From positions 31,130,127 to 31,194,126 of the forward strand of contig CM067298.1 in NCBI GenBank assembly GCA_034231615.1: DNA of 64,000 bases, in the 5' to 3' direction. The DNA is from Meghimatium bilineatum (taxonomy: Eukaryota > Mollusca > Gastropoda > Stylommatophora > Philomycidae). The number at the start of each line of letters is the position of its first letter. Position 1 is the first letter of the stretch. Shown here piece by piece: positions 55,601-61,600 of the stretch. Below the pieces are notes generated by a model. The model did no database searches. It had not been told where the DNA came from and saw only the letters and a program-made list of their open reading frames with translations. The position numbers were made by a program, and so were the translations under genes.

Positions 55601-58600
55601 TGAACAAATAATAATGAGAAAATAAACACAAATAATCCGTGTAGAGGTCTGGCGAAGGACAAAGACTTATTTTTGTTATTCTATAATTTTATCTGTCACC
55701 ATGCATACATTATGGACTGTTTATTTAAAAAAAAAAGATTTTTATAAGTTAATGTTTTTCTGTATTCATTTTCTTATTATTGTATGTTCATTCAGACGAA
55801 GACCTGAGATTGAAACGTCAACCGTTTCCTTTCTTATTTATATAATCTTTTTTGTGTATTCAGTTGCATTCTTGGCAGGTGGTGTGTCACTTTTTTATAG
55901 GGGCAGAGTACATATGGGGAAACCAGAGTACAATGAAATCAATCCTCTGTTGTCTGTGAGCCTTAGATTTCATTTACAACATTTATGAATAATATATCGT
56001 AATAATTATATTTTAGTGATACAGATAGTCATATATTATGGAGATGCATATGTCAAGTACAATATGTGTGTCAATTAACACAAGATATGTTGGGAATATA
56101 TGTTAAATCATTTAACACAATATATTGTTGGTTTCTGTACTGCTTATACCTAAGTAGGCAACATTTTTGGGTCTGTGGGCTAGATTGAGATTTTTTAATG
56201 TCACATGGTGTTCACTACCTGATTTTGCTCACTATTGGTTTAAACACTACGACAGTGTGTGTTATAAATTCCATCAATTAATTACACACATTGTAGATAT
56301 GTGTTCTATATGTACATATATGTTTCAGGTGTGTATATCATGATGCAGACATTTACCTCCTTGATGATCCTTTCAGTGCTGTTGACACCAATGTTGGCCA
56401 ACATATATTTCAAGGGTATGTTTTTATCATAAGAAATTGTATCTACTTCAGTTGTCTTTGTATAGAAGTTTATTGTGCTAGCTCTTCAATTTTTATACAC
56501 TTTTTTTAATGGGGAATAAACATAAAAATGAAACAGTGATGCAGGATGTTAGTGCAGAGATAAATAACACTGATAGTTAAGAATGAACAGTAGCAATAAT
56601 AATGATACTAGCATTGTTAAACTAATTTATATTTGTATTTAACAGGTGTATTCAGAATTTACTGAAAGAAAAAACAGTGGTTTTGGTAACACATCAACTT
56701 CAGTACCTGAAGCAAGCAGACAGGATCATTGTTCTACGTGATGTAAGGCTTCCTATAAGAACTTTTGTTGAAATTAATCTCAAGACAGAAAATCTTGTCC
56801 CATATAAATTAATAGCAATTTTTTTATTGGTATAGTGAAATGGTCACAAGAAGCAGATATTTTTAATCGCAATATAAAATATATAGAAATAAACATCAGT
56901 AAGTGTCAGATAATGTCTTCAACTCTGGTCAATGCAGTTAGCAGCTTCACAGGCAAATTTCAGTATCCGAGAGATATAATAATTGTGTCACAGACTGTCT
57001 TGCAATAAGTCAATACACAGGTGGTACTTTGTAGATAGTCATAGCCTACGTAACTAAATAAATGACAAAAGTTGAAATGCTGCCTCCGTTCATGAGACTT
57101 GTTTATACAACAAATTAGCATCTTTTTCAAACAGGCAAAAGTATTTAGTGTACAAATGTACTGAGGAGTGCCTGTGTATTCAGAATTAAACTTTTCACAG
57201 AACAGAATTTAGTGCCTGGAAACTGTCATGGGCTAAAATAGTGAACTAAAATAATATGTGCAGAAATCAGATGTGCCAGGTAAAAAGATGAATGTGAAAC
57301 TGGTAATCATTGGTTGAAATCATGATGAGAAAATTTGCATGGTTTTATTAAAGCAAATGTAATGAAACTCATGTTTTTATTCTCAGGGATCCATCTATGA
57401 TGTTGGAACATATGAAGAGCTGAAATCCAGAGGGATAAATATGAAAGCTCTTGTTTTTTCAGATGAGCATCCTAAATATATTTCTGAAGCAGCCAGAGAA
57501 GTAGAAGAGGAGCAAATAAAATTGCTTGTGAGTTTGTATATGAAATTTAATAACATAAGTAAAGCATACTTTATTGTTATGTTGCTTGTGACTCAACTAC
57601 TTGTGGTCATACCTAAGTTTGTCTTTTTTTGTGTGCATTTGTTCTCTCAATCTCCCATGAATCCTCTTATAGCAGGACACAGTACTACTAGAGTTCCATC
57701 AGGATGTGGTCCAAAGAAAGGAAATATGCTGTGATGCCATTTTATTTACACTAATTACCTGACTCATCCGACTTTGGCATGTTAACTAATATGTTTAGTG
57801 TTTACCACTTCCACTGAATGGTAAATGTCTAGTAGTCGAATGGACGCTTTTGTCACGAATATAGTAGGCCAGCCATACAAGAGAATTAGTTCTTGTACTT
57901 GCATGCTGGTCACCAAGCTCAAAGCTAACCATGGTCATGCATGGTGGACATTGGTTATCAACTCAGCCACAGATGTGTTTTGGCTTATTTTAAAATAGAT
58001 GTCTCAAGATTATTTTTTTAAACTGTAAGTTTTCAATCACATCTTAACTTTCAAAAAAATTAAGTGTAAGAAAGAGATTATATGAAAGTTCCCCATAAGT
58101 CCTCTTTAATTAAGATTTAATGTTCAGTTGTAAGCTCACAATACATTATCAAATTGTTATATCTACTTTATTTCATAGAATAGAATGACATAAATCATGA
58201 TAATAAATAGTGTGACAGTTGCATTAGAATTTACACATATTTTTGTGAATTTGTATAAAAATGTTTATACATTTCTTGTTTTCTTTTCTATCCAGCTTGA
58301 GAGTAAACATTTGAACCTAGATTCTGAAATATTTTTTTCTATTCAGCTTGAGAGTAAACATTTGAACCTAGATTCTGAAATATTTTTTTCTATTCAGCTT
58401 GAGAGTAAACATTCTAACCTAGATTCTGAAATATTTTTTTCTATTCAGCTTGAGAGTAAACATTTGAACCTAGATTCTGAAATATTTTTTTCTATTCAGC
58501 TTGAGAGTAAACATTTGAACCTAGATTCTGAAATATTTTTTTCTATTCAGCTTGAGAGTAAACATTCTAACCTAGATTCTGAAATATTTTTTTCTATTCA

Positions 58601-61600
58601 GCTTGAGAGTAAACATTTGAACCTAGATTCTGAAATATTTTTTTCTATTCAGCTTGAGAGTAAACATTTGAACCTAGATTCTGAAATATTTTTTTCTATT
58701 CAGCTTGAGAGTAAACATTTGAACCTAGATTCTGAAATATTTTTTTCTATTCAGCTTGAGAGTAAACATTTGAACCTAGATTCTGAAATATTTTTTTCTA
58801 TTCAGCTTGAGAGTAAACATTTGAACCTAGATTCTGAAATAGATGATGATGAGGATGAACAAACTGCTGCTGTTGGATTTCGTGTGTATTGGGAATACTT
58901 TTCTGCAGGGTTTGGCCAAATATTGATGCCAATCTTATTTCCATTGTTGGTTGCTGGACCTGTAAGTTTATTCTCTGCCCATACATATTGTATTTTTTAT
59001 TATAATTCCTTTTGATATGTAAATCTAGTTCAAAGTACATTATTTTAGATACATCCGTCTTGACTCAAAGACTCAGAGGATTGACTTCATTGTATGTAGG
59101 TTTCCTCATATATAATTCACCTTTCTGCTTCTTCTGTATTCATTCTCTAAATCCTGCAGAGCAGCAGGTTGTAGTCCAGAGGACGGAATGCGTTGTATTA
59201 TGGTTTACAGCTTAGCTGCAACATCTGCACTATTCATTCTGACACATCCGACTTCAGCATGGGTTATGGGTTACTTTAACTCTCTATAAGAGGGATCAAC
59301 CAACTCCACCCCCAAGTCTACATAGTTGCCTCTTATGATATGCAAGGTAGATAACAGTGTTGCTATTATTTACTCCTCTTTTGGACCCTGCGTCACAATG
59401 GTGTCACATTTCTAAATAAAGCAGCGTGTTTACAGCCAAGAGTATCACTCATAAAACAAAACTCCATAGCTTCACATGATAATTGCTAGGAATCTAAGAC
59501 AAAATACACTTATAAACAAGACTCACGATCTCATATTGAGCCTGCAATCTTTTCAGCACAAAGAAATTGGTTTAACTACTATGTCACGGAGATCCATCTT
59601 TCTGTTTCTTTGAAATGATTGTCATTTTTATTTAGTTGCCGTAGAAGTTCATGTTTGTCTAGTATTGTGTTGAAAATCCTCACCCCTAACCTCTAGATAT
59701 ATATATATATATATGACATGTTCTTTCCAGAACATAGTCTTCTTTATGGATCTTCTGAAATCTGCATGAATCTGGGAAAGTTGATCTGCCAAAGTTAGGG
59801 AGATGTTTAAACAATCTGAGATGTCTTGTCCATCATTATCTTGGGTGACCCTTACCCCTACTTCCAGGAACCATGCCTTCTATTATTAATTTGTTCCTGC
59901 TGTTATGTCTTTTTATGTGACATAATGTGACATAAAATCTCAGCTTTCTTGTTATAATGTGATTTATGAGCCACCCCTTTTCAACGTTTAATATTTTTAT
60001 CACTTCTTGATTAGTCTTTTTCGTTGTTAAGTTTATTCTCAAAATTCTTCTGCAGCTCTCATTTCTCTTTGCCACTGTTTTATTAAGTGTTCACAAACCT
60101 CTAGATATGAGTTTTGAAAAGTAAGGTGTGTTAAAATGAAACCCGTTCAAGTAGGTTTATTACACGATTATGAAATGTACATCAGAAGTTGTGTTATAAT
60201 TAATTAAAGCAATTATTATGAAACATTTATGCACCTGGAGTCATCAGAAGTCACCATTGGCATTCAAACATGCATTCCACTATTTGGATAGATGGTGAAT
60301 TCATCTGAGAAGAAGGACTTTGTTTGCTCATTGAACCATTTGATCACTCACCACTATCATGACATCTTAATCAGAGTGGAATCATTGTCCCTTCAAAGAA
60401 ATGAAAGCTCCATGGCAATAGAACGGAGTTGTAATCTGGGTGGGGTGGAACTTCCAACCTTTTCCATGCGAACACATCCTGCACAATTTTCACGACATGT
60501 GGGTGAGCATTGCAACAGAATGACGCTACATGACAGCTGGGTCATTTATTCTTGATGGCTGTATGCAGCATGTCTAGTGTGTTCATGTATCTGACAGCTT
60601 TGATGTTAGCACTAGACCTTTTATAGTTCACCAACAACAATCTTTCTTGATAAAAATAGTATATTCATACCTTTCCTGAAGAAATTTGTGATATGAATAT
60701 TTTGCTTTTTGGTGATCCAGGATGTTTCCATTGCATGCTGGCTGCAAGGCTCAAAGTGGTGACATTTGTCACCTGCCACTATTATGCCTCACCCTCTGCA
60801 TAGTAACACTCTAAATGGTTCAAATTCCACCTCATTCATTCTTTCTTATTCGTTCTTCTTAGTCAATAACCATGTTACCCACTAAGAATACATTTTCAAG
60901 TATTTCAGTTTATTCCTAACCATCATTTGAACAGTCCCTAATGATACAGAGAATTCATCAGTTAACGAATTCAAACTCCAGCAAATGTTAACCCGTATGG
61001 CTGCATCCATTTTGACGATGGCTTATTCTGTCACAATATGTGCCTGACTTGTCCGCAGAATATCATTGATCATCTGTCATCCTTCCCAAAAAATTCTTGC
61101 CCAGTCCTTGACTTTGGTGTTCAACACACATTTTTTACCATACTGCCAACATTCCTTGATGAAAGTTTGTTGGTCAATATCCTTCAGCTGTAAGAAATTG
61201 AATCCCTTCTCATTGGTCCAATTTAAATGGATTCATTATCACACTAGACACTAAGCTTACATAGACAATGACCACGTGACCATATGTTCATTTATGTGTA
61301 CTTATTACATCAGTGTTACCCGTGTACTGGATTAGGTGATGCAGCAAGGATATGTTTCATTTGAACATGCCTCATAAGAATGTTGAGAAAAATATTGTTT
61401 GCAATAAAAAGGTAAAGTATTGGGATTATTTTGAAAAAGGAAAACAAATTTATATTTATACTAGTCATTGAATAATTGCATACTAAAAATCCATGCTGCT
61501 TGTGTTAAAGTTGAGGGTAGGTTCCATAGCAGCAACCAACCTACTGCTGTAGATGAAGATAACTCTTCATGTTCTAAGCCACAGAAACTATTTGGTGGGG

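Follow-up and report, generated by a model that had tools for sequence, protein, structure and literature searches.

Does an exon that carries eleven evenly spaced 3' splice sites in a single reading frame represent a device for tuning the length of a protein, or a minisatellite that came to lie across a splice junction and is tolerated there? This question is raised by a stretch of 64,000 nucleotides from the gastropod Meghimatium bilineatum (assembly GCA_034231615.1, contig CM067298.1, forward-strand positions 31,130,127 to 31,194,126), referred to here as the window, whose contig (C1) belongs to a 1.61-Gb genome of 32 contigs. The window contains an ABCC4/MRP4-like gene of the ATP-binding cassette (ABC) transporters and, between the regions coding for its first nucleotide-binding domain (NBD1) and its second transmembrane domain (TMD2), a tandem array in which the acceptor itself is part of the repeated unit. 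The original prediction made from this sequence proposed a length-tuning splice array. The results described below favour the second answer: a minisatellite probably happened to span the acceptor and is tolerated there, a selected length tuner being improbable.

The array contains eleven YAG acceptors spaced 51 nt apart, which place the possible exon starts at 58296 + 51k (k = 0-10). The tract of the first acceptor (58281..58295, + strand; TTCTTTTCTATCCAG) is unique, with 2 of its 15 positions unlike those of the repeated tract. It is followed by ten full 51-bp units (58296..58805, + strand), each consisting of 36 exon bases and then 15 intron-like bases ending in CAG (TTTTTTTCTATTCAG) and read in frame, and finally by a last copy whose match covers the 36 exon bases, after which the single-copy exon takes over (GATGATGATGAGG). 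Tandem Repeats Finder called the repeat at 58284-58841, with a period of 51, 10.9 copies and 98% matches. Being made of head-to-tail copies of a unit within the 10-100 bp range, the array is a minisatellite, and as a repeat it is not due to chance. Eight of the ten units are identical, and the other two, unit 3 (58398..58448) and unit 6 (58551..58601), share an adjacent double change of TG to CT (CATTTGAAC to CATTCTAAC) that turns TTTGAAC into TTCTAAC and replaces the second Leu of the unit by Ser. The earlier description of eleven exact 51-bp units therefore holds for the number of acceptors and for their spacing; the repeat itself comprises ten 51-bp units, of which eight are the same, and ends in a copy of 36 bp. 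Since units 1-3 are equal to units 4-6, one mutation and one duplication of a three-unit block would suffice to account for both variants, and this suggests past multi-unit steps. The near perfection of the array is also what would speak for a copy number inflated during assembly or polishing. We consider this highly improbable, given that the flanks and the frame are clean, that variant units 3 and 6 form the pattern expected of a real expansion, that a genome-wide DNA search (in which common words were skipped) matched the locus only once, and that dozens of comparable arrays exist elsewhere in the assembly.

The ABCC4/MRP4-like gene is located on the + strand, extends from before or near position 8048 past the end of the window, and is apparently intact. 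The exon preceding the array (57387..57527, +) codes for the end of NBD1 and the start of the linker; its product ends in EEEQIKLL and its donor (CTT|GTGAGT) is in phase 0. Two more exons lie upstream, at 56329-56415 and 56646-56742 (both +). An intron of 768 nt (57528..58295, +) leads to the first acceptor. Counted from the last acceptor the single-copy exon measures 156 nt (58806..58961, +; donor CCT|GTAAGT), and counted from the first one it measures 666 nt; seven other exons of the gene that were measured range from 80 to 219 nt. The intron downstream of the array exon is longer than 3 kb, the start of the next exon being approximate, and TMD2-like exons on the + strand follow towards the end of the window (one ending near 62801, another at 63617-63696), with TMD2- and NBD2-like pieces, identified by eye, within the next 10 kb (locus L002). 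When the NBD1 and linker exons were joined, their translation (248 aa) had MRP4/ABCC4 chains as best match (E 6e-70), in agreement with the predicted location of the array at the start of an exon between NBD1 and TMD2 of an ABCC protein. Among the ABCC4 relatives shown by this comparison, the linker between the two domains aligned weakly.

All eleven acceptors carry complete-looking 3' splice sites and are predicted to be usable. A pooled acceptor model, trained on a small sample of 10 other acceptors of the ABCC4-like gene, gave the internal acceptors a score of 6.53, in the 99.3rd percentile of the AGs of the window (the value was printed for acceptors 2, 3 and 11, and the other internal acceptors share the letters of the scored stretch), and acceptor 1 a score of 3.63, in the 98.3rd percentile. 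Leave-one-out scores of the ten real acceptors ranged from 4.43 to 8.56, an interval that includes the internal acceptors of the array and has acceptor 1 just below it. A C in the pyrimidine tract is penalised by this model, a penalty that we take as an effect of the small sample; the low score of acceptor 1, a site with a long pyrimidine tract, was therefore not relied upon. Two earlier matrices, both replaced by the pooled model, disagreed on this site: one, in which several exon starts were one base off, ranked it above the internal acceptors, and the other, overfitted to 10 sites, ranked it below them. The rank of acceptor 1 against the internal acceptors is uncertain.

Every unit had been said to possess its own branch-point-like CTGAA, pyrimidine tract and AG. 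This is correct for acceptors 2-11, which are the only ones with a CTGAA, 19 nt upstream in each case (a distance read out directly for acceptors 2-5, 7 and 11 and implied for the others by the identity of the units), and incorrect for acceptor 1, which shows neither a CTGAA upstream nor a CTRAY within reach and whose tract is the differing one. As a consequence of the double change in units 3 and 6, a CTAAC, which is a full CTRAY match, is found 31 nt before acceptors 4 and 7 and before no others. In both units a TAG sits 5 nt after the CTAAC; according to the section of PMC1431707 cited here, an AG close to the branch point can be bypassed, and this TAG falls within that range.

The frame is open through the whole array and each unit encodes 17 residues; the open translation confirmed that every acceptor is in frame and would add from 0 to 170 residues to the linker in 17-residue steps. 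The proposal that the array is a length tuner, with several acceptors used in regulated proportions and linkers up to 170 residues longer altering the transporter, draws on this preserved frame and on the usable look of all eleven sites, as well as on the CTAAC motifs, which would strengthen acceptors 4 and 7, and on the position of the array in a linker that aligns weakly among relatives. However, when acceptor-spanning units were tried at the array exon, 311 of 931 were in frame and open, which means that one duplication in three would give such an array, and the unit length is divisible by 3 in 18 of the 39 unique clean arrays of the survey described below. The in-frame status of the array is explained by chance and is unremarkable. 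Moreover, the nearly identical units give no sign of separate roles kept for long, the array is absent from both paralogues that were read, and the donor arrays that three further ABC genes of the genome carry lose the frame. Taken together, these results make a length-tuning splice device very unlikely, and this part of the original prediction was not upheld.

A protein search of the genome gave 71 matches, five of them in the gene of the window, and 30 loci were returned. At the corresponding point of the linker, the two nearest paralogues (L035/L036 and L037) carry a phase-0 intron with one acceptor, followed by a 176-nt exon; their boundary sequence reads PEPVQLPE...VGY[RS]VYV. Since both have a single acceptor, the array is a derived feature of the ABCC4-like gene; by comparison with the 176 nt of the paralogues, the 156-nt exon that starts at the last acceptor is ancestral-like.

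Clean arrays, defined by a unit of at least 20 bp, at least 3.5 copies and at least 85% matches, were surveyed in 246,402 bases comprising the window plus ABC-gene loci. The 41 rows obtained were reduced to 39 unique arrays, as two rows of L012, with units not divisible by 3, repeat those of L043. This corresponds to about 158 arrays per Mb and to 6.56% of the bases (2.39% in the window alone), and clean arrays are thus very common in this genome. Those lying no more than 220 nt from a tblastn exon block were inspected for an in-frame stop or a clear splice site between array and block. Outside the window, three arrays were found to straddle a junction, all of them at donors, and the other near arrays were read as non-straddling. 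The first (L012 1331-1531, identical to L043 9294-9494; C4, about 0.688 Mb; - strand) is formed by about 6.4 copies of 31 bp that comprise the last 27 exon bases plus GTTA. The second (L027 1107-1515; C13, about 3.046 Mb; - strand) has 10 copies of 41 bp containing the exon end and AAG|GTTAGT, some copies having GCTAGT, with GC for GT. The third (L036 7068-7367; C4, about 28.943 Mb) has 7 copies of 43 bp at the donor of a TMD2 exon of the nearest paralogue (GATA|GTAAGT; GTAATT in one copy). While 27 exon bases are copied in L012, only a few are in L027 and L036. These are arrays of the same kind in the same genome, and in them too a splice site has been copied; they differ from the array of the window in that the site is a donor and the copies are out of frame. 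Since units of 31, 41 and 43 bp lose the frame, a splice-site array needs no length logic in order to be tolerated.

The array of L042 begins about 15 nt after a donor and hence does not straddle it, and the near case in L013 (19 bp, 2.8 copies), which is below the array definition, may or may not straddle a junction. An array in an ABC-gene intron (L021 1-918; C22, about 21.525 Mb; 25.5 copies of 36 bp, 99% matches) ends 15 nt before the next acceptor, and an intron of the ABCC4-like gene carries a 30-bp array of about 22-28 copies (window 9365-10196). Altogether, 4 of at most 130 junctions were straddled, against 8.5 expected from coverage (P(≤4) 0.067; P(≥4) 0.97), the total deriving from 13 exons of the window and 52 blocks outside it, 3 of which (in L002) belong to the gene of the window; outside the window the figure was 3 of at most 104, against 6.8 expected. 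Many of these exon ends were placed approximately, and some are close to the end of a locus. As there is no excess of straddled junctions, the arrays look like tolerated chance overlaps.

On these grounds we infer the following order of events for the minisatellite in the ABCC4-like gene. An initial duplication would have taken the last 15 bases of the intron and the first 36 bases of the exon, exchange or slippage between copies would have grown the array to ten extra copies, and one growth step probably duplicated a block of three units, from which the identity of units 1-3 and 4-6 would result. The gene would tolerate the array because the boundary is located in a poorly conserved linker and because all acceptors are, by chance, in frame. 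Use of the last acceptors would give an exon of ancestral size and leakage to the others longer linkers, and no selected function would be needed.

Regarding the acceptor used, competing 3' sites of like strength at least 20 nt apart have been described in PMC9225289: in the section cited, the upstream site is preferred less strongly when the flanking introns exceed 250 nt, and the sites favoured are those close to each other across the exon. Since the introns here measure 768 nt before the array and more than 3 kb after it, and the other exons 80-219 nt, the last acceptors would have a slight edge under exon definition. We therefore anticipate that splicing takes place chiefly towards one end of the array, with a slight advantage for the last acceptor. 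In our judgement, use of the last or a near-last acceptor is the leading possibility and falls somewhat short of an even chance, a mixture of acceptors is doubtful, and use of the first is more doubtful still. The donor arrays would also fit an exon-definition rule, as in these the first donor, the closest across the exon, would keep the normal protein.

Several points weigh against a tolerated chance overlap spliced at its downstream end. By default the first AG downstream of the branch point is used (PMC1431707, in the section cited), a rule that would favour acceptor 1. For the class of long introns, the section cited of PMC9225289 reports a reduced upstream preference and does not state a reversal, and the events described come from other organisms. 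The junction count is a ceiling obtained in ABC genes only, and if far fewer junctions were visible to the check, the 4 straddled ones would be at or above expectation. Finally, the change to CTAAC that units 3 and 6 share belongs to an uncommon class: among all substitutions of the base unit, 2 of 153 single ones and 12 of 450 adjacent double ones create a CTRAY within reach. This is a weak hint of something beyond drift, notable without being a proof.

The first-AG default would suit a model in which the exon start at 58296 is used almost always, giving a fixed linker with ten extra 17-residue repeats encoded by a 666-nt exon. The long pyrimidine tract of acceptor 1 and its higher rank in the matrix with partly wrong exon starts agree with this model, and so does the ABCA7 donor one unit on, used in 2 ± 1% if the passage of PMC5954066 considered below is read in this way. 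On the other hand, the pooled score of acceptor 1 is 3.63 versus 6.53 and no CTRAY is within its reach, a weak argument coming from a model of 10 sites, and 666 nt far exceeds the length of the seven other measured exons; we find the model rather unlikely. A further reading, in which a minisatellite-dense genome repeatedly copies its junctions into sets of almost identical donors or acceptors, splicing at this locus makes use of several of the eleven acceptors and is pulled by CTAAC to acceptors 4 and 7, and a single allele yields a ladder of linker lengths that shifts with copy number, seems to us decidedly unlikely.

Tandem acceptors of the NAGNAG type and wider ones provide several in-frame sites at the start of an exon and give proteins that differ by a short insert. 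Such sites are usually few and are not copies of one another, whereas here eleven sites derive from one repeat, lie 51 nt apart and have a tract each. Experiments on duplicated 3' splice sites were reportedly carried out by Reed and Maniatis in 1986, and constructs with duplicated splice sites have been used to argue for scanning or for exon definition. Eleven in-frame acceptors, ten of them with identical tracts, amount to a natural version of such constructs and offer a clean natural test of how a cell chooses between identical splice sites, the donor arrays in three genes being the mirror test.

The closest parallel is the variable number tandem repeat (VNTR) in intron 18 of human ABCA7. 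According to the passage cited (PMC5954066), this VNTR begins with the GT of the exon 18 donor, and 25 bp are retained when splicing occurs at the donor one unit on; the frameshift isoforms are given as 14 ± 6 and 2 ± 1% "respectively", the second value being read here as that of the donor one unit on. Both cases concern a minisatellite at an exon edge of an ABC gene, with a unit that begins with a splice site and, in ABCA7, use of the site in the next unit. The ABCA7 repeat differs in multiplying a donor, in its 25-bp frame-breaking unit and up to about 427 copies, and in that skipping of exon 19 is the splicing change that tracks VNTR length. Gain of introns has been described where a tandem genomic duplication doubles an AGGT within an exon and so creates a new intron (PMC3443670 and PMC2891723, in the parts cited). 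In that process, too, sites and splice choices are multiplied by a tandem duplication close to a splice motif, but the array here repeats an acceptor that already existed and requires no additional intron; doubling of an AGGT proto-splice site was not found at the array, where the unit junction reads CAG|CTT. DDX3Y/MSY2 was rejected as a precedent, its minisatellite being, in the part of PMC3039753 cited, the transcription start region with no splice-site array. The claim that no repeat unit acting as an acceptor array had been described stands for acceptors, as none of this kind was found in a search of titles and abstract openings with partial coverage of the open-access literature, and it is narrowed by the donor VNTR of ABCA7 as that passage presents it. 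Beyond this locus, the more useful result is that, in this genome, several ABC genes have splice junctions copied within minisatellites. This suggests that expansions at splice junctions can sit in apparently intact genes, and bears on repeat expansions that change proteins.

Other readings of the array were considered and rejected. Micro-introns within it (AGA|GTAAAC ... CAG, 44 nt) would break the frame and would have a weak donor, with 5 of 9 positions matched, versus 6-8 of 9 in eight donors of the ABCC4-like gene. The RNA of the array folds worse than 20 shuffled versions of it, all of which did at least as well (z +3.65), and no structure is proposed. A single-sequence AlphaFold2 model of the 222-residue exon gave a beta-rich repeat (mean predicted local distance difference test score 82.3, predicted template modelling score 0.77). 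Pfam matches on the repeat frame (DUF2148, Sarcoglycan_1 and Tudor), of which no stretch passes alone, were taken as spurious.

Elsewhere, the window contains frames resembling those of mobile elements. At 30902-32680 (- strand) there is an open transposase-like frame of 593 aa with a DDE_Tnp_1_7 domain (PF13843) and a zinc finger, and at 18013-22047 (- strand) and 43363-46413 (+ strand) two long open frames carry reverse-transcriptase and endonuclease domains and are similar to those of long interspersed nuclear elements (LINE-like).

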